In this document: positions 1,771-24,113 of the stretch, in pieces
How the letters are laid out: each line of letters starts with the position of its first letter
Numbering within the stretch: position 1 is the stretch's first letter
Assembly (NCBI GenBank): GCA_013540605.1
Contig: JABVCK010000009.1
Coordinates: 1 to 64,000, forward strand
Reading direction: 5' to 3'
DNA: 64,000 nt
From: Bacillota bacterium
GTDB lineage: Bacteria > Bacillota > Clostridia > Ch29
Made by a program: the position numbers and the translations under genes
Notes under the pieces: generated by a model
Databases searched by the model: none
What the model saw: the letters and a program-made list of their open reading frames with translations, nothing else
What the model was told of the DNA's origin: nothing

Positions 1771-3378
1771 ATGAGATTCGACCCTCTGCAGTACAATTAC
1801 CCGTCTAGGAGAAATATCGTATACGCAGGCAAGGGAATGGTTGCCACATCCCAGCCCCTTGCAGCCCAGGCAGGGCTTGAGGCGCTCAAAAAAGGAGGCA
1901 ATGCCATCGATGCAGCCATAGCTGCTGCAACGTGCCTCACTGTTGTGGAACCTACATCAAACGGGATAGGTGGTGACGCATTTGCCCTTGTATGGACGCA
2001 GGGTAAACTGCATGGACTTAACGCAAGCGGTACCGCCCCGGAAAGCATATCCGTTGAAACCGTAAGAAATTCCGGCCACAGAGAGATGCCGAAATTTGGC
2101 TGGATTCCTGTGACCGTACCGGGGGCACCGTCGGCCTGGGCGGCGCTTTCGGAGCGTTTCGGCAAGCTTCCGTTGTATGAAGTGCTAAAGCCTGCGATCC
2201 GGTATGCGGCGGAAGGATATCCCGTATCACCTAATGTTGCGGAAATGTGGGGAAGAGCATATAAATTGTACCGGGATACGTTAAAGGATGAAAAATTTCG
2301 GTATTGGTTCGAAACCTTTGCCCCGGACGGAAAACCGCCCGGACCGGGAGATATCTGGAAATCTTCCGGTCATGCGCAGACCCTTGAGTCCATAGCCGCG
2401 ACAAAGGCGGAGTCTTTCTACAAAGGAGAACTGGCGGAGAAGATAGATGCATTCTCCAGGAAATACGGAGGCTTTCTGCGGAAGAGCGATTTAGAAGCCT
2501 ATAAACCGGAGTGGGTAGAGCCGATAAGTATTAACTATAGGGGATACGACGTTTGGGAAATACCGCCAAACGGACATGGCATAGTGGCCCTTATAGCTCT
2601 GAATATCCTGAAGGGCTTTGAGTTCACTGAAAAAGAAACGGTGGGCACTTATCACAAACAGATAGAAGCGATGAAGCTTGCTTTTGCCGATGGGCAAAAG
2701 TACGTGGCGGATCCAAAGTTTATGAGCGTTACTGTAGATGAACTCCTCTCGGATAAATATGCGGAGGAGAGAAGAAAGTTGATAGGCACAGAGGCATTGA
2801 CGCCAGCAGCGGGCAGGCCGGCGAAGGGCGGGACAGTATACCTGGCTGCCGCCGATGGAGAAGGAAATATGGTTTCGTATATACAGAGCAACTATATGGG
2901 CTTCGGCTCTGGACTCGTGGTTCCAGGGACCGGCATAAGCCTGCACAACCGGGGCAACAACTTCTCGCTGGAGCCCGGTCACGATAACTGCATAGCACCC
3001 GGTAAGAAACCCTACCATACGATAATCCCCGGTTTCCTCAGCAAAGACGGCAAACCAATCGGGCCCTTCGGGGTAATGGGAGGGTTCATGCAGCCGCAGG
3101 GACATGTACAGGTCATCATGAATACAATAGATTTCCACCTTAACCCTCAGGATGCGCTGGATGCACCGCGGTGGCAGTGGGTAGAGGGCAGGACCGTACA
3201 TATTGAGCACCAGTTTCCCGGCAGCATCGCACATCCATTAGCCAGGATGGGGCATGACCTTAGGCTGCAGGCGGATTCAACATCCTTCGGCAGGGGTCAG
3301 ATTATCTGGCGTTTGGATAGCGGCATTCTTGTGGGCGGAACTGAACCAAGAACCGATGGGACGATAGCTGGCTGGTAG
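1771..3378 (+). CDS. ggt: Gamma-glutamyltransferase family protein (Ggt/YwrD-like)
   Basis: This 535-residue protein belongs to the gamma-glutamyltranspeptidase family of N-terminal nucleophile hydrolases. These enzymes transfer or hydrolyse gamma-glutamyl groups from glutathione and related amides. The N-terminal part has the family signature KGGNAIDAAIAA (41-52) and GIGGDAF (66-72). The expected autoprocessing nucleophile is T355 in KGGTVYLAAAD, which begins the small subunit. A later PFGVMGGFMQPQGHVQ block matches the family oxyanion region. No signal peptide is present (start MRFDPLQYNY), so it is probably cytoplasmic like the YwrD/acylase-like branch rather than secreted Ggt. The start is supported by GGGAGGATAGCAT-ATG. 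It precedes an aminotransferase and the sigma54 regulator on the same strand, suggesting it supplies free amino acids. Substrate is not known. Confidence 0.9.
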   Translation: MRFDPLQYNYPSRRNIVYAGKGMVATSQPLAAQAGLEALKKGGNAIDAAIAAATCLTVVEPTSNGIGGDAFALVWTQGKLHGLNASGTAPESISVETVRNSGHREMPKFGWIPVTVPGAPSAWAALSERFGKLPLYEVLKPAIRYAAEGYPVSPNVAEMWGRAYKLYRDTLKDEKFRYWFETFAPDGKPPGPGDIWKSSGHAQTLESIAATKAESFYKGELAEKIDAFSRKYGGFLRKSDLEAYKPEWVEPISINYRGYDVWEIPPNGHGIVALIALNILKGFEFTEKETVGTYHKQIEAMKLAFADGQKYVADPKFMSVTVDELLSDKYAEERRKLIGTEALTPAAGRPAKGGTVYLAAADGEGNMVSYIQSNYMGFGSGLVVPGTGISLHNRGNNFSLEPGHDNCIAPGKKPYHTIIPGFLSKDGKPIGPFGVMGGFMQPQGHVQVIMNTIDFHLNPQDALDAPRWQWVEGRTVHIEHQFPGSIAHPLARMGHDLRLQADSTSFGRGQIIWRLDSGILVGGTEPRTDGTIAGW

Positions 3379-3510
3379 CGGAAATAATATAACTTAATGG
3401 CACAGGAGATTGGTTGCCGTCACCGTTCCCAAAAAGGCGGATGCATTTAAACATGTATTGGTATAAAATAGATATAGTGATTAAATAAATAAATATTTGG
3501 AGGGATTTAA

Positions 3511-4707
3511 ATGCCGGATATTTCACGACTGGTAGAAGAAATCACGCCGTCTATGACTATTGCTATAACGGCCAAGGCAAAGAAGATGGTTGAGGAAGGC
3601 CTGGATATAGTCGACTTTGGGGTGGGCGAACCCGATTTTGATACCCCGGAGCATATAGCCCAGGCAGGTATACAGGCTATTAAGGGGGGAAAGACAAAGT
3701 ACACCTCCGCCTATGGTATCGATGCGTTGAGGAAGGAAATCTGCAGGAAATTGAAAGAGGATAACAACCTTGAGTATGAGCTGGACAATATTATCCTATC
3801 AAGCGGGGCCAAACACTCCCTTTCGACTGCTTTTCAGGCAATATGCAATCTTGGTGATGAAGTTATTGTACCATCACCCTATTGGGTCAGTTATCCCGAA
3901 ATGGTAAAGATCGCAGGCGCGAAGCCGGTCATTGTGAAAACTTCAAGGGATGAGGACTTTAAAATAACTGCCGGGCAGTTTGAAAAAAGCATAACTCCAA
4001 AGACGAAGGCAATCATTTTGAATTCTCCTTCAAATCCGACGGGTGCTGTTTATTCGAGGAAAGAACTCACGGATATAGCAGAGGTTGCGGTTGATAGGGA
4101 TATATTTGTAATATCCGATGAAATATATGAGAAGCTTATATACGATGGAATGGAACATGTGAGCATAGCCGCCCTGGGATCGGAGGTTAAATCCTTAACC
4201 ATACTGATTAACGGTATGTCCAAGGCCTATGCCATGACGGGCTGGAGGCTTGGATACGCTGCGGCCGAAAAGAAAGTGATTAAAGCAATGGGGACCATAC
4301 AGGGGCATGCAATCTCTCACCCCAGTTCAATAACCCAGTTTGCCGGGGTTGCGGCATTGTCCGGAGAACAGGAAATAGTAACAAAGATGGTGGAAGAGTA
4401 CGACAAAAGAAGAAAATATACGATGCAAAGGCTGGATGGAATTGACGGTCTCGATTATGTGAAACCCCAGGGGGCGTTCTACGTCTACATAAACCTGGAG
4501 AACCTAATCGGGAAGTCCTATGAGGGTAAAACAATTCAGGCTTCAATGGATTTTACGGATTTGCTGCTTGAGAAAGCCAGGGTTGCCGTTGTCCCCGGAA
4601 AGGCTTTTGGAGATGACAACTATATAAGAATATCCTATGCGACTTCCATGGAGCAGTTGGAAAAGGGTTTGGACAGGATGGAGGAGTTCATACGTTCTTT
4701 GGCGTAG
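3511..4707 (+). CDS. Class I/II pyridoxal-phosphate aminotransferase (aspartate aminotransferase-like)
   Basis: This 398-residue fold-type I aminotransferase swaps amino groups between an amino acid and a 2-oxo acid in the cytoplasm. Visible features are the N-terminal FGVGEPDFDTPEHI, the PLP-phosphate region SSGAKHSLSTAF (97-108), NSPSNPTGAVY (171-181), the ISDEIYEKLIY block (201-211) and Schiff-base K238 in GMSKAYAMTGWRLGY. The C-terminal arginine that binds the substrate carboxylate lies in YIRISYATS. The length is normal for the AspC/PatA subgroup. GGAGGGATTTAA precedes the ATG. The sigma54 activator follows after 20 bases, so the two are probably cotranscribed. The amino donor cannot be read from sequence alone; aspartate, alanine or aromatic substrates are all possible. 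Confidence 0.92.
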   Translation: MPDISRLVEEITPSMTIAITAKAKKMVEEGLDIVDFGVGEPDFDTPEHIAQAGIQAIKGGKTKYTSAYGIDALRKEICRKLKEDNNLEYELDNIILSSGAKHSLSTAFQAICNLGDEVIVPSPYWVSYPEMVKIAGAKPVIVKTSRDEDFKITAGQFEKSITPKTKAIILNSPSNPTGAVYSRKELTDIAEVAVDRDIFVISDEIYEKLIYDGMEHVSIAALGSEVKSLTILINGMSKAYAMTGWRLGYAAAEKKVIKAMGTIQGHAISHPSSITQFAGVAALSGEQEIVTKMVEEYDKRRKYTMQRLDGIDGLDYVKPQGAFYVYINLENLIGKSYEGKTIQASMDFTDLLLEKARVAVVPGKAFGDDNYIRISYATSMEQLEKGLDRMEEFIRSLA

Positions 4708-4727
4708 CTAACAGGTGGTGACAAAGG

Positions 4728-6149
4728 GTGAAAGAAACGGATTATAACGAACTGGTCAGGCGTATTGAGCAGCTTGAAGCAGATAACAGTGAATTGAAGA
4801 CAATTATAGATAGCATTTATGCCGGTATATACCTGGCCGATGGAGAAGGCAAAACCCTTATGGTTAACTCCATATATGAGACCATGTCCGGGATACCCGC
4901 CAGTGAACTTGTGGGAAAAAACCTAAAGGACCTGGTGAACGAGGGTTATTTCACCGAATCGGCGAGCCTTGTTGTAATCCAGACCAGATCACCGGCCACG
5001 GTGATATATACGTGCAAGACCGGCAAAAAGCTGATGGCCAAGGGCAAGCCTATATTTGACAAAAAAGGGCAGTTGGTCAGAATTGTAAATACGGTTTGGG
5101 ATATAACCGAGTTGATGAATATGGAGAGTAGGGTGGAAGAAGCCCGGGAGTTTTCACCACAGGAGGACAAGCAGCGATTAAAGCTTGAAGCCATGGAGGA
5201 CTTTGTGGCCAGGAGCGAGAAGATGTTGAAGGTTCTGGACCTGGCTATGCGTGTCGCCAGGGTGGATTCTACGGTGCTGGTGTTGGGAGAGTCCGGTGTG
5301 GGCAAGGAGATAATTGCAAAAATTATTCATAAAGCGGGGAAGAACAATCAGGGCCCCTTTATTAAGGTGAACTGTGCATCCATACCGGAAAACCTGCTTG
5401 AGTCCGAACTGTTTGGATATGAAAAGGGGTCCTTCACAGGGGCAAACAAAGAAGGTAAGATAGGCATGTTTGAGATGGCAAACGGAGGCACGATTCTTTT
5501 AGATGAAATTGCAGAACTTCCGGTACACCTTCAGGCAAAGCTATTGCGGGTGCTGCAGGACAAGGAGATTATCCCGGTCGGAGGTACCAGGGCGCGCAGG
5601 GTGGATATAAGGGTAATCGCAGCTACCAACAGGAATTTAATCGATATGGTAAAGAAGGGCACCTTTAGGGAGGACCTTTACTATAGGCTGAATGTGGTGC
5701 CGGTGTATATTCCCCCCCTCAGGGAGAGGAAGGACGATATATCGTTCTTGCTTGTCTATTTCATGAATAAATACAATAAGAAATACAATACAAACAAAAA
5801 GCTTTCCAATGAAATTATTGAAAAACTGACAAATTACTCATGGCCGGGCAACGTGAGGGAACTTCAAAACTTCGTCGAGAGAATGATAGTTATAACAAAG
5901 GATGAAAATATCTCGCTTCAGGATATTAAGGACTATTTTGTCGGAAGGCAGGAAGATAGTTTTCTGGAGGAGGAAAGGGACCTCACGCTGAAGGAACAGG
6001 TAGAAAGGTTGGAGAAGGCTGCGGTGGAGGAGGCTCTCAGGCGTTATGGTTCTACGCGTAAAGCCGCTGATGTATTGGGAATTGACCAATCAACGGTGGT
6101 GCGAAAGGTAAAAAAATATAATATTCAATACAGCGATGATGCGGATTAG
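4728..6149 (+). CDS. PAS-domain sigma54-dependent transcriptional activator
   Basis: This 473-residue bacterial enhancer-binding protein has a PAS sensor (about 20-130), a AAA+ domain (about 160-390) and a Fis-type HTH at the end (about 425-470). The ATPase has Walker A GESGVGKE (187-194), the sigma54-contacting loop GSFTGA (234-239, the common Ser variant of GAFTGA), Walker B GGTILLDEIAEL and the WPGNVREL sensor II region. The GTG start follows AGGTGGTGACAAAGG. The gene lies 20 bases after the aminotransferase. About 115 bases downstream is a textbook -24/-12 promoter driving the next operon, the most likely target. PAS ligand unknown; related regulators in clostridia respond to amino acids or their keto acids. 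Confidence 0.95.
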   Translation: MKETDYNELVRRIEQLEADNSELKTIIDSIYAGIYLADGEGKTLMVNSIYETMSGIPASELVGKNLKDLVNEGYFTESASLVVIQTRSPATVIYTCKTGKKLMAKGKPIFDKKGQLVRIVNTVWDITELMNMESRVEEAREFSPQEDKQRLKLEAMEDFVARSEKMLKVLDLAMRVARVDSTVLVLGESGVGKEIIAKIIHKAGKNNQGPFIKVNCASIPENLLESELFGYEKGSFTGANKEGKIGMFEMANGGTILLDEIAELPVHLQAKLLRVLQDKEIIPVGGTRARRVDIRVIAATNRNLIDMVKKGTFREDLYYRLNVVPVYIPPLRERKDDISFLLVYFMNKYNKKYNTNKKLSNEIIEKLTNYSWPGNVRELQNFVERMIVITKDENISLQDIKDYFVGRQEDSFLEEERDLTLKEQVERLEKAAVEEALRRYGSTRKAADVLGIDQSTVVRKVKKYNIQYSDDAD

Positions 6150-20372: not shown

Positions 20373-20401
20373 TAGACATAGTATGCAGGTGATGGTATAA
20401 T
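20373..20401 (+). promoter_or_regulatory. SigA-type promoter of cheW
   Basis: TAGACA (20373-20378), a 17-base spacer and TATAAT (20396-20401) lie about 30 bases before the cheW start, giving the signalling block its own transcription start. Confidence 0.6.
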
Positions 20402-20432: not shown

Positions 20433-20885
20433 GTGAAGGAAAACCAACTGGTAGTATTCAGGTTGGGAGAAGAGGAATACGGTATGGATATTCTCGGCGT
20501 GAAAGAGATTATCAGATACCAGAAAACGGTTAAAGTGCCTGATTCTCCGGACTTCATTGAAGGGATAATAAACTACAGGGACAGCGTGGTTCCGATAATG
20601 GACCTTAACAAAAGGTTCAGGCTGACCGGGAAGGGGCTGAGCGATACCACCAGGGTTATTATCGTCAATATGGGGGGAAAACAGGTTGGCCTTATGGTTG
20701 ACCAGGTTGAAGAGGTTCTCAGGATCAACGAAAGCAGTATCGAGGCAACCCCGGAAGTAGTAGCAGGAGTTGACCGGCAGTATATCAGGGGGATAGGAAA
20801 GCTCGAGGGGAGACTGATTATTATCCTCGATGTGGAAAGGGTGCTGACAGAAGGGGAAAAGCAAGAGCTGCAGCAAATACAATAA
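20433..20885 (+). CDS. cheW: CheW chemotaxis coupling protein
   Basis: This 150-residue CheW adaptor links chemoreceptors to the CheA kinase. It shows LVVFRLGEEEYGMDILGVKEIIR at the start, PDFIEGIINYRDSVVPIMDLNKRF in the middle and VGLMVDQVEEVLRI followed by the GIGKLEGRLIIILDVERVL end. The GTG start follows AAGGAGGGGGATAAT. No other chemotaxis genes adjoin it; the only chemoreceptor-like protein in the window is the Rossmann-MCP fusion at 47.4 kb. It lies 37 bases upstream of the agr-type operon, and whether the two are cotranscribed cannot be decided from sequence. Confidence 0.95.
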   Translation: MKENQLVVFRLGEEEYGMDILGVKEIIRYQKTVKVPDSPDFIEGIINYRDSVVPIMDLNKRFRLTGKGLSDTTRVIIVNMGGKQVGLMVDQVEEVLRINESSIEATPEVVAGVDRQYIRGIGKLEGRLIIILDVERVLTEGEKQELQQIQ

Positions 20886-20922
20886 CTCTTTCAATATAAA
20901 GAGGATTAGGGGGTTAATAAAT

Positions 20923-21381
20923 ATGGATGTTATGCCATGGCAGGCGGTAGTTTTTGTCAGTATTCCCGAGGCTTTTTTGATGAACCTGATGGGGCTGACA
21001 TTAATTGGGGCACGGCCGGATTTGAAAAGGCTGGGAATGGCAGCAGCGGTTCAGGCCCTTGCTTCCTTTGCCATAAGGGCTTTGCCTATGGTCTATGGGA
21101 TACATATTATTATGCAAATTCTTGTAGCAGTTATTTTGATAAAAATATTCTTAAGATTCCAGTGGAGGGTAATCATTCCGGGTATTCTTTTGGGTATGGT
21201 GATATTTATAGGCGTTTTGGACTCGCTTTACATTCCGTACGTTGTCAAGATTATCCCCTTAGAGAAGATTTTAGCAAGCCCATGGATCAGGGTGGCGGTT
21301 TCCCTGCCGCAGCAGCTTGTAATGCTGCTTATTATACTCGTGTGCCACAGGTACAATTTCAAGATTATAAGCATGTCATAA
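20923..21381 (+). CDS. Five-helix membrane protein, possible sensor part of a split AgrC
   Basis: This 152-residue integral membrane protein has about five hydrophobic helices (roughly 5-25, 38-56, 60-76, 82-103 and 125-145) and no soluble domain. I do not recognise a named family. It lies directly upstream of a GHKL kinase that has only two membrane helices, 23 bases apart and in a different frame. Typical AgrC receptors have six or seven helices in one chain, so this protein plus the kinase would give the usual count. I infer it may form the signal-binding half of the receptor. GGATTAGGGGGTTAATAAAT precedes the ATG. An immunity or transport role is an alternative. Confidence 0.7.
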   Translation: MDVMPWQAVVFVSIPEAFLMNLMGLTLIGARPDLKRLGMAAAVQALASFAIRALPMVYGIHIIMQILVAVILIKIFLRFQWRVIIPGILLGMVIFIGVLDSLYIPYVVKIIPLEKILASPWIRVAVSLPQQLVMLLIILVCHRYNFKIISMS

Positions 21382-21404: not shown

Positions 21405-22253
21405 ATGCTCGATACCAACGCCTTGTATATTATAATTATTATCCTTTTCCAGGCCATAGCACTGGTGGTGCTGTTCGAAAGCTTTCACTTCAGCTCTGCC
21501 ACCGGATATATGCTGCCGGCAATAGAAAGGATAGTGCCATATCTTTCTTATATAGTCACAGCATTGACCCTCATAACTATTTTGTCGGTGAGCAAGCTGT
21601 CGCAGCTTGCCCAGAGAAAACAGGAGTTGGAGATAAGGGAAATTAACAGCCAGCATATCAGCCAGCTTAATGAAGCGCTCAGGGGACAGCGCCACGACTT
21701 CAACAACCACCTCCAGGTGCTTCATTCGCTGGTGAAAAACCGGCAGTTTCCGGATGCTGCCCGGTATATCGAGGATGTCATAGGCGAGGCCATAGAGACG
21801 AACGACCTTCTGAATATAAGCAACCCCGTGATTGCCGCTATAGTGACATCAAAGCTGCAGACTGCAAAGAGCAAGGGGGTGGCGCTGGAATACGACCTGA
21901 AGGGCGACCTGGATAAGGGCAGGGTCAAGACCATCCACCTGTCCAGGGTATTGGGTAATCTCCTCGACAACGCCATAGAGGCCGTTGAGGACCTGGAAGA
22001 GGGCAGCAGGCGGGTCTACCTGCAGGTATACGGCGACGACAGCGGCGTATTCATCAGCGTCAAAAACCCCGGCCAGATAAGCCCGTCGGTGCTGGACAGG
22101 CTGTTTGAACCCGGAACATCTACAAAAAAAGGGAATAACAGGGGAATGGGACTAAATATTGTAAAGAGTATTGCCGATATGTATAATGGAAGGGTGGAAG
22201 CCACCAGCCACCCTGAAAACGGCGTCAGGGTATTGGTGGAGCTTCCCCGGTGA
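21405..22253 (+). CDS. AgrC-like GHKL sensor histidine kinase (two-helix form)
   Basis: This 282-residue kinase has two N-terminal membrane helices (about 7-25 and 46-63), a short coiled coil and a Spo0B/AgrC-type dimerisation helix with H97 in LRGQRHDFNNHLQVL. A GHKL ATPase follows. The N box is RVLGNLLDNAIEAVEDLEEG, and the G-box region reads LFEPGTSTKKGNNRGMGLNIVKSI. The H-D-F-N-N-H signature is typical of AgrC and other peptide-sensing or DcuS-like kinases. GAAGGGATGTAA leads into the ATG. It is followed after 10 bases by the AgrB-like gene, and the LytTR regulator lies at the end of the cluster, so it should phosphorylate that regulator in response to the peptide made here. Confidence 0.9.
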   Translation: MLDTNALYIIIIILFQAIALVVLFESFHFSSATGYMLPAIERIVPYLSYIVTALTLITILSVSKLSQLAQRKQELEIREINSQHISQLNEALRGQRHDFNNHLQVLHSLVKNRQFPDAARYIEDVIGEAIETNDLLNISNPVIAAIVTSKLQTAKSKGVALEYDLKGDLDKGRVKTIHLSRVLGNLLDNAIEAVEDLEEGSRRVYLQVYGDDSGVFISVKNPGQISPSVLDRLFEPGTSTKKGNNRGMGLNIVKSIADMYNGRVEATSHPENGVRVLVELPR

Positions 22254-22263
22254 GGTGCGGACT

Positions 22264-22911
22264 ATGAAGGCCATAAGCGACCGAATGGCGCGGTTGATAG
22301 TAAAGCGGTCGGGCAGGGAAGACGTGTATGCTGAAGTCGTAAGCTATGGGCTGCAGGCAGTCCTGGGTACCCTGGCTGAGTTTGCTGCGGTTGTGCTCGC
22401 GGGCTATCTTCTGGGCATGCTGAAGGAAATGGTATTGATGTCTGTAGTATTCGCTGCGATGCGAATGGTGGCGGGGGGAGTTCACCTTTCCACCTACCCC
22501 AGGTGTTTTATATCGAGCGTCGCCATGTTGACCTTAGGGGGGTGCCTTTCCCGGGCCATAAGCAAAGCGGCGTTTCCGGCCGGAGCTGTATTTCTTATAT
22601 CGGCCTCCATCTTTATAACCTATTCGCTGTACAAATATTCTCCCAGGGACAACCCCAACCGGCTGATCAAGGAAGAGGAGCTACCGGGGTTCCGGCGCCT
22701 TTCCTTCATACTGTGGATGGGAGCGGCCGCCTTTGCAGCTCTTTCATTCCTGGTGGAAGGCGGACTTCGCTGGTATCATTTCAGCATGATCACAGGGCTC
22801 GCGATCGAGAGCTTCACCCTTACCGATGCAGGCTACAGGCTATTCACAATACTGGATAGATTCATTAGTAAAGGAGGAGGTGTGAGAGATGAAAAAAGTC
22901 AGAATCTTTAG
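22264..22911 (+). CDS. agrB: AgrB-like cyclic-peptide processing endopeptidase
   Basis: This 215-residue accessory gene regulator B family membrane peptidase has its catalytic pair H74 and C81 in RMVAGGVHLSTYPRC, with the H-to-C spacing of Staphylococcus AgrB (H77/C84). Four or more hydrophobic helices follow or flank it (about 30-58, 60-72, 84-115, 140-170). AgrB trims the C-terminal tail of AgrD and joins the new carboxylate to a side chain in the peptide, forming a ring. The start ATG follows GAGGTGCGGACT. Its 3' end overlaps the signal-peptide gene by 23 bases. All catalytic residues visible here are intact, so the system looks functional. Confidence 0.92.
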   Translation: MKAISDRMARLIVKRSGREDVYAEVVSYGLQAVLGTLAEFAAVVLAGYLLGMLKEMVLMSVVFAAMRMVAGGVHLSTYPRCFISSVAMLTLGGCLSRAISKAAFPAGAVFLISASIFITYSLYKYSPRDNPNRLIKEEELPGFRRLSFILWMGAAAFAALSFLVEGGLRWYHFSMITGLAIESFTLTDAGYRLFTILDRFISKGGGVRDEKSQNL

Positions 22912-23014
22912 CGCAATAGCCACCTTACTGACCCTTATTGCCGCAGCCTTCGCCGGCGGCGCAAGTTTTAGTTATCTGCATCAGCCAGAGACGCCGGAAA
23001 TGCTGAGGAAGTAA
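22889..23014 (+). CDS. agrD: AgrD-like cyclic lactone autoinducer precursor with Ser instead of Cys
   Basis: This 41-residue precursor was located by reading the end of agrB. AAGGAGGAGGTGTGAG lies just before its ATG. It has a basic N-terminus (MKKVR), an amphipathic hydrophobic helix (residues 6-22) that anchors the precursor, then GGA-SFSYL-HQPETPEMLRK. The tail HQPETPEML matches the conserved [YH]QPE.P..L leader-off sequence recognised by AgrB. Five residues before it, where clostridial AgrD almost always has Cys, there is S26. The predicted product is a five-residue ring S-F-S-Y-L closed through the serine hydroxyl (lactone rather than thiolactone). Serine lactones are known in the Staphylococcus intermedius group. 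No cysteine occurs anywhere in the precursor. Confidence 0.85.
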   Translation: MKKVRIFSAIATLLTLIAAAFAGGASFSYLHQPETPEMLRK

Positions 23015-23020
23015 GCGGAA

Positions 23021-23053
23021 GCCGATGAGGTGGACAGGGTCCACCTCATCGGC
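23021..23053 (+). promoter_or_regulatory. 15-bp perfect hairpin between agrD and the regulator gene
   Basis: GCCGATGAGGTGGAC (23021-23035) is exactly complementary to 23039-23053 around AGG. No T-tract follows. It may stabilise or process the agrBD message, act as a weak terminator, or serve as an operator. It starts 7 bases after the agrD stop. Confidence 0.6.
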
Positions 23054-23094: not shown

Positions 23095-23838
23095 ATGCTT
23101 AAGGTTTTGATATGCGAGGACCAGGAGCAAAACGCAAAGGACCTGGCGGATATCCTGGCCGAAATGCAGGACGTTCAGATTGTAGGATATGCAGGGGATG
23201 GCGCAGGCGCCGTCAGCATGGTAAAGAAGCTGTCCCCCGATGTGGTATTGATGGATATCGGCCTGCCCGGTATGGACGGGCTGAGCGCCACCGAGCTGAT
23301 TAAGAGTATAGACCCCGACATATGCGTGGTGATTACGACCGCATATACGGGTTACGCCCTTGATGCATACAAGCTTTACGTCTACGATTACATACTTAAA
23401 CCTTACGATAGGATCAGGATTTTCAAAACCCTCAACAATATTATAAAGAACAGGAGCATAAAACAGCCGGAAACTAGACATTCTTACCCCAAACCGTCAG
23501 CCAAAATCGTGATTAAGACCAGGGATGAGATAATATTTGTCGACCAGATGGAAATTGTCATGGTAGAAAGGGATGAGACAAAGTCCTGCATATATACCCT
23601 GGGCGAGGTGCTGGAGACCTATGATTCCCTAAATACCCTCGAAGAGCGGCTGGACAAAAAAATGTTCTTCCGGTCCCATAGGGGATATCTGGTCAACATG
23701 TATTATGTGGACCGGGTTGTCAATTACGGCCGTAAGGTATACACAATAAGGTTGAAGAATATTGAAAAAGAGGCGCTTATTTCCTATACCAAGATAAATG
23801 AACTGGAGGATTTGATAAGCCAAAATGCCTGTTCATGA
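23095..23838 (+). CDS. LytTR-family response regulator (AgrA-like)
   Basis: This 247-residue regulator has a receiver (E8-D9, phospho-acceptor D54 in VLMDIGLPGMDG) and a C-terminal LytTR DNA-binding domain (about 140-240). The latter shows IVIKTRDEIIFVDQMEIVMVERDETKS, MFFRSHRGYLVNMYYV and a final YTKINELEDLI. It closes the agr-type cluster and is the natural partner of the GHKL kinase upstream. AGGAGTGTAATAATT precedes the ATG. A pair of 18-bp direct repeats at 20-base pitch, followed by an extended -10 promoter, lies immediately downstream and may be a target. It resembles the regulator at 441-1187 in architecture but serves a different operon. Confidence 0.9.
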   Translation: MLKVLICEDQEQNAKDLADILAEMQDVQIVGYAGDGAGAVSMVKKLSPDVVLMDIGLPGMDGLSATELIKSIDPDICVVITTAYTGYALDAYKLYVYDYILKPYDRIRIFKTLNNIIKNRSIKQPETRHSYPKPSAKIVIKTRDEIIFVDQMEIVMVERDETKSCIYTLGEVLETYDSLNTLEERLDKKMFFRSHRGYLVNMYYVDRVVNYGRKVYTIRLKNIEKEALISYTKINELEDLISQNACS

Positions 23839-23842
23839 AGGT

Positions 23843-23915
23843 AAAGGTCGTTTTCACGAAGGAAAGGTCGTTTTCACGAAATTTTACGTGAAACCGGCTT
23901 TTTTTCTGTTATAAT
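23843..23915 (+). promoter_or_regulatory. 18-bp direct repeats, hairpin and extended -10 promoter downstream of the AgrA-like gene
   Basis: AAAGGTCGTTTTCACGAA occurs at 23843-23860 and again at 23863-23880, a pitch of 20 bases. The second copy also forms the 5' arm of a hairpin (TTTCACG / CGTGAAA) followed by a T-run, which could terminate the agr operon. Just after it TGTTATAAT (TATAAT at 23910-23915) is an extended -10 with no good -35, as expected for an activator-dependent promoter. LytTR proteins usually bind such direct repeats next to a poor -35. Confidence 0.45.
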
Positions 23916-23983
23916 AACTACATAGACAAAGTAGGTAAATCATTACCCCTATACTGCTTATTAACCCCTTTATAATCCATTTT

Positions 23984-24010
23984 AAACCCCATCTGCCCCG
24001 GATGGGGTTT
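23984..24010 (+). terminator. Hairpin in the leader of the HgdB-like gene
   Basis: AAACCCCATC and GATGGGGTTT form a 10-bp stem around TGCCCCG, followed by TATCTTTG. It could attenuate transcription from the promoter at about 23910. A second extended -10, TGGTATAAT (TATAAT at 24077-24082), lies closer to the gene. Confidence 0.5.
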
Positions 24011-24113
24011 TATCTTTGTGTACAAGAATATTTTCCGGAATATGCCGGTTTGGGACCATAGCACTTTTGTTTATGGTATAATCTATTTTAACAGGATAAA
24101 AAGGAAGGTCGAT

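Follow-up and report, generated by a model that had tools for sequence, protein, structure and literature searches.

An agr-type locus with a predicted serine-lactone signal, a split receptor and a conserved predicted small RNA in an uncultured clostridial bacterium

Introduction

In Staphylococcus aureus, an agr module adjoins the regulatory RNA RNAIII, a structured molecule of about 514 nt whose C-rich motifs can mask ribosome-binding sites. A small RNA also figures in the RgaSR-SpoZ system of Clostridioides difficile: the response regulator RgaR activates SpoZ by way of tandem repeats, with critical Gs at -72 and -51 (PMC10602386). In that organism, RgaS receives no signal from the Agr1 peptide, and its gene lies apart from that of RgaR (PMC10602386). 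On the side of the signal, Clostridium thermocellum makes a five-residue AgrD product closed from Ser25-O to Phe29, identified by LC-MS/MS against a synthetic standard; its discoverers describe a lactone, whereas other clostridia more commonly use thiolactones (PMC5322536). Lactones also occur as the AIP of the Staphylococcus intermedius group and as GBAP of Enterococcus faecalis (PMC3673130), yet these peptides are longer and have either tails or a larger ring, they are paired with a fused AgrC or FsrC, and they come from another class of Firmicutes.

The locus described here lies in the window, the whole 64,000-nucleotide stretch of DNA that was analysed, and belongs to an uncultured clostridial bacterium; features are given by their coordinates on the forward strand. 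It probably represents an entire quorum-sensing module of the agr type, with a serine lactone as its signal and small-RNA feedback on the receptor. Its precursor resembles C. thermocellum Clo1313_2818 in belonging to the AgrD family, in a five-residue Ser-O lactone (predicted here), in the A|S boundary before the ring and in its origin from an anaerobic clostridium (PMC5322536). Unlike that orphan agrD, which has no neighbouring agrB, kinase or regulator, it sits in a full operon. The new content of the locus is its conserved, agr-linked predicted small RNA together with its split receptor.

A Cys-free precursor beside an intact AgrB

The agrD gene (22889-23014) starts inside the 3' end of agrB, with an overlap of 23 nt, and its translation of 41 aa, MKKVRIFSAIATLLTLIAAAFAGGASFSYLHQPETPEMLRK, has no Cys anywhere. 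A profile search matches it to TIGR04223 at 39 bits (E 6e-10; curated cut-off 19). When AgrDs were aligned to the profile, 161 rows in all, Ser26 took its place in column 35, which is mostly Cys elsewhere. Score and column together put the match far beyond chance. The nucleophile of an AgrD is a Cys or Ser five residues before an xQP tail, and Ser26 stands exactly there, within the sequence AFAGGA|SFSYL|HQP. The predicted ring is S26-F-S-Y-L30, with the predicted cut before H31, and cyclic S-F-S-Y-L has a computed [M+H]+ of 598.287.

The neighbouring AgrB, a membrane endopeptidase (22264-22911), reaches 108.7 bits against PF04647 (cut-off 23), and its His74 and Cys81 are invariant in an alignment of four orthologues; a search for a solved structure of an AgrB-like protein found none. 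An earlier note on this DNA had described an agr-type precursor next to an intact AgrB, with Ser26 at the ring position of a Cys-free peptide, and the profile scores, the retained catalytic pair and the Cys column of the alignment bear this out. Its S-F-S-Y-L ring holds as a prediction. A cyclic signal closed through Ser is very likely on this sequence evidence, and by analogy with relatives the window's AgrB would carry out the cyclisation. The predicted lactone is probably tail-less, because the A|S boundary before its ring is the same as in the confirmed C. thermocellum peptide.

Serine at the ring position in the family and the class

Six genomes make up the family of the window genome (G000), and those compared with it include G001, G003, G004 and G005. 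The orthologous operon is present in G001, G003 and G005, where the rings read S-L-S-Y-L, S-F-T-L-L and S-F-S-Y-L, and Ser is fixed in all four genera with an intact copy; in G004, the regulator and small RNA lie at a contig edge and agrD falls beyond the assembled sequence. A second agr locus of the window genome, shared with G001 and G003, also encodes a Ser-type AgrD (ring S-M-W-I-L). The earlier note had proposed aligning AgrD homologues from relatives and had reasoned that Cys in close relatives would point to a local mutation. The alignment of the G001, G003 and G005 orthologues finds only Ser at this column, and a local Cys-to-Ser change is ruled out by the fixation of Ser in the orthologous operons and by the second agr locus. 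A degenerate locus is likewise rejected for the window copy, even if the second locus does have a decayed copy.

That second locus (L003, G000:C11:316000-325000; agr genes at about 2585-5439) has a stand-alone receptor half whose reading frame is broken by a frameshift in the window genome but complete in G003. Past the regulator of this locus come imperfect tandem repeats, and after them the gene of a secreted peptidase-like protein. In the decayed copy (L067, G000:C11:141304-144363), little of agrB remains, agrD lacks its start, and the regulator contains an in-frame stop.

Serine is not confined to this family. A TIGR04223 search of 393 genomes of the class gave a match in 122, and the better-scoring matches, with duplicates removed, comprise 137 AgrDs. 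Their ring residue is Cys in 98, Ser in 35 and Thr in 4, with Ser distributed over 14 families; one of the Ser cases is ambiguous through an adjacent Cys and another is the decayed copy in the window genome. When the window's family is set aside, Ser still accounts for 27 of 129 AgrDs, in 13 other families. On a quick AgrB tree, the residue switched between Cys and not-Cys at least 10 times, although well-supported branches force only 4-5 of these changes. Serine is thus ordinary among the AgrDs of the class (35/137). The earlier note knew of no serine lactone characterised in such anaerobes; this claim to novelty is refuted by the 2017 report of the C. thermocellum Ser-O-lactone, obtained by targeted LC-MS/MS (PMC5322536), and by the census, and the serine-lactone AgrD signal is a kind already known.

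The census contains further variants. Near-identical Ser-type AgrDs (ring S-M-F-L-M) with their AgrBs occur at L023, L103, L109 and L100 across three families (f25, f7, f53), a similarity that looks like recent horizontal transfer. At L090, L129, L102 and L144, the ring position holds Thr beside an intact AgrB, and threonine lactones are predicted. AgrDs of family f53 are largely orphans without agrB, resembling the C. thermocellum case.

A receptor divided between two genes

The operon has an AgrB with catalytic His/Cys beside agrD and an AgrA-like LytTR response regulator (23095-23838; PF00072 and PF04397). AgrC as a single polytopic protein is absent from it; the sensor half and the kinase half occupy separate genes. 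The first of these (20923-21381) encodes a 152-aa membrane protein with orthologues in the family and without a significant match among Pfam or NCBIfam families. A profile restricted to stand-alone copies aligns with residues ~12-173 of full-length AgrC-like kinases from other families (E 1e-9 for a 462-aa kinase, 5e-9 for a 466-aa kinase), which identifies the protein as the N-terminal half of an AgrC-type receptor. The second gene (21405-22253) supplies the other half, a short Spo0B-type histidine kinase in which Pfam and NCBIfam searches place SPOB_a and HATPase domains alongside two hydrophobic segments. Its phospho-acceptor His lies at about residue 95, compared with about 245 in fused AgrC-like kinases, and this offset equals the size of the separate 152-aa protein.

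The two proteins would work like AgrC only if they assemble, as their sequences lead us to infer. Many families of the class have stand-alone sensor halves next to their agr loci, both where the AgrD is of the Cys kind and where it is of the Ser kind, and a search of mainly open-access literature found no description of a split AgrC. Another arrangement of this sensor appears in proteins of ~290 aa (L072 1293 (-), L092 1050 (+), L038 236 (+) and others like them), which combine the AgrC sensor half with a helical tail and no apparent kinase domain. These adjoin orphan agrDs without agrB in families f53, f25, f78 and f90.

In the window and its relatives alike, the agr genes are immediately preceded by a CheW-like gene (20433-20885 in the window), taken from the ORF list and assigned by eye rather than by profile search. 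It ends 37 nt before the next ORF, a promoter scan places a promoter-like TAGACA-17-TATAAT at 20373-20401 upstream of it, and a related gene precedes the agr operon in relatives. The CheW-like gene is possibly the first of the agr transcript, and its presence suggests a tie between quorum sensing and chemotaxis. Within the operon, a perfect 15-bp hairpin (23021-23053; fold z -7.3) separates agrD from the regulator gene. Its arms, GAGGTGGA...TCCACCTC (also given as GAGGTGGAC...GTCCACCTC), are conserved in relatives, and it is possibly an RNA-processing element or one that sets expression ratios.

A predicted small RNA follows the regulator

A repeat scan found no response-regulator repeats upstream of the agr operon. 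Right after the stop codon of the regulator, two tandem 18-nt direct repeats, AAAGGTCGTTTTCACGAA, begin 20 nt apart (23843-23880) and are kept in relatives; these LytTR-type repeats are likely sites for a response regulator. They are followed by a TATAAT (23910-23915), found by promoter scan and aligned in relatives, which would be the -10 element of a small RNA promoter. Next comes a core, AAATCATTACCCCTATACTGCTTATTAACCCCTTTATAATCC, and then an intrinsic terminator (23984-24010), a 12-bp stem with a T tail. Together they define a predicted small RNA of ~93 nt (23922-24014), its 5' end placed 7 nt after the -10 box. In predicted folds, the core is largely unpaired while the terminator folds, and the core carries two ACCCC motifs (23942-23949 and 23958-23968).

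Repeats, -10 box, core and terminator are conserved in five genomes (the window's, G001, G003, G004 and G005), always after the agr regulator. A covariance model built on the alignments finds exactly one copy in five of the six family genomes (E 5e-23 to 2e-20), including the G004 copy, which was left out of the model yet matched. Beyond the family, it gives five weaker matches in the rest of 291 genomes (best E 1.6e-4). These matches, in five other families with E values of 1e-4 to 4e-3, were rejected as mainly terminator. A small peptide encoded in the core was rejected as well, since a one-base deletion in the window core relative to relatives argues against coding. From this conservation, it is highly probable that the small RNA is real.

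Control by the adjacent agr response regulator is predicted with good confidence. Counted from the predicted start, the conserved Gs of the repeats stand at about -72 and -52, close to the Gs near -72/-51 through which RgaR activates SpoZ (PMC10602386). Unlike SpoZ, the window small RNA directly follows the agr regulator as the next transcript, and the two RNA sequences were compared via the Rfam search alone. That search returned no significant family, only two weak sRNA matches that fell far short of the gathering scores, and no match to the RNAIII covariance model; the small RNA is therefore not an RNAIII member. It shares with the agr-RNAIII system of S. aureus its place beside an agr module and its C-rich motifs, but it is far shorter, mostly linear and predicted to act on the receptor gene itself.

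The window genome holds only one further tandem pair of this kind, located before a c-di-GMP-I riboswitch (84.6 bits) and a stand-alone LytTR protein (L170 1500-2224, G000:C35 near 353996). A close match to this LytTR protein was found only in the window genome, and the repeats there are a possible link between agr and c-di-GMP.

Complementarity to the start site of the receptor gene

The ribosome-binding site of the 152-aa receptor gene reads AGGGGGTTAATAAATATG in the window, and within it GGGGTTAATAA (20910-20920) is the exact 11-nt complement of the second motif of the RNA, making it the predicted pairing site. In each of the four genomes that allowed the comparison, the receptor ribosome-binding site is complementary to ACCCC motifs of the RNA. 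Gene starts were ranked as targets over part of each genome's genes: 438 in G000, 305 in G001, 164 in G005 and 247 in G003. Of all the starts ranked, that of the receptor gene has the longest Watson-Crick match in both G000 (11 nt) and G001 (12 nt), and in G001 it also has the best duplex energy of the 305, -36.3 kcal/mol. In G005 and G003, the receptor starts form 13-nt runs that include G-U pairs, through the first motif. Other agr gene starts that could be placed pair poorly with the small RNA.

Between G000 and G001, two adjacent positions show compensatory changes, UU to CA in the RNA and AA to UG in the mRNA, and pairing is kept. The G001 RNA fits the G001 site and pairs poorly with that of the window (7 nt).

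Duplex energy ranked the receptor start less well than run length did; by energy alone it is unremarkable, 11th of 247 in G003 and 10th of 164 in G005. Moreover, the match was first noticed by eye in G000 and later tested in relatives. For these two reasons, our preference for the receptor start as the true target of the small RNA is a modest one. A G-rich site facing a C-rich RNA is likely to pair to some extent by composition, and the four genomes share ancestry.

Proposed mechanism and competing readings

From the homologies, conservation and complementarity described above, we infer ring closure, receptor assembly, activation of the small RNA and repression, which would proceed as follows. 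AgrB would cleave the Leu30-His31 bond of AgrD, with Cys81 forming an acyl-enzyme that the hydroxyl of Ser26 would then attack to give the five-residue lactone S-F-S-Y-L. The 152-aa membrane protein and the short kinase would together make up the receptor, which would sense this signal and phosphorylate the LytTR regulator. The regulator would then bind the tandem repeats and switch on the small RNA, whose exposed ACCCC motifs may pair with the receptor ribosome-binding site and so damp the system; the RNA may also act on other G-rich start sites. The full chain would run from a serine-lactone agr system, through the family-conserved small RNA that it turns on, to pairing of this RNA with the ribosome-binding site of the split receptor in the same system, and would amount to RNA-based negative feedback within an agr module. 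We put it forward tentatively, at slightly below even chances.

A considerable minority share of the probability goes to a small RNA that is real and agr-controlled and whose main targets are other mRNAs, the receptor match being incidental. Many G-rich start sites score equally by duplex energy, and C-rich RNAs usually have several targets. However, such coincidence would have to produce long matches to the same receptor gene in four of four genomes, through either motif, together with two compensatory changes.

It is rather unlikely that the mature signal is a head-to-tail (homodetic) S-F-S-Y-L cyclopeptide, formed first as the lactone and then by an O-to-N acyl shift, which the N-terminal position of the ring Ser would permit. 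Tail-less pentameric thiolactones do rearrange in minutes (half-life 1.3 min at pH 7). After 22 h, 48% of a lactone analogue that likewise lacked a tail had rearranged and 36% had been hydrolysed (PMC11297923). The shift of the lactone is nonetheless far slower, taking most of a day rather than minutes, so the lactone would last hours, and the C. thermocellum peptide is reported as a lactone (PMC5322536).

Still less probable is a reading of 23843-24014 as a leader or attenuator of the next gene, or simply as the terminator region of the agr operon, with no free small RNA. The stretch does sit between agr and a downstream gene, and the weak model matches elsewhere come mostly from the terminator hairpin. 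Against this, the genes further downstream differ among relatives where the contig continues, a conserved -10 box and repeats belong to the stretch itself, and its core is more conserved than its surroundings. Finally, an AgrD that yields a linear peptide or none, in a decaying locus, is very improbable: the precursor is Cys-free and another agr copy of the window genome (L067) has decayed, but Ser is fixed in four genera with intact AgrB, and C. thermocellum demonstrably makes a lactone from a Ser-AgrD (PMC5322536).

Implications

Although thiolactones are treated as the rule, Ser accounts for about a quarter of the clostridial AgrDs sampled. Among tail-less pentapeptide analogues, thiolactones have lifetimes of minutes and lactones of hours (PMC11297923). 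On the strength of these analogues of another peptide, a Ser ring should outlive a Cys ring, and the choice between Cys and Ser may set signal duration in tail-less pentapeptides. The adjacent small RNA would take RNA-output agr systems beyond the known pathogens, and its feedback on the receptor would become directly testable with a reporter.
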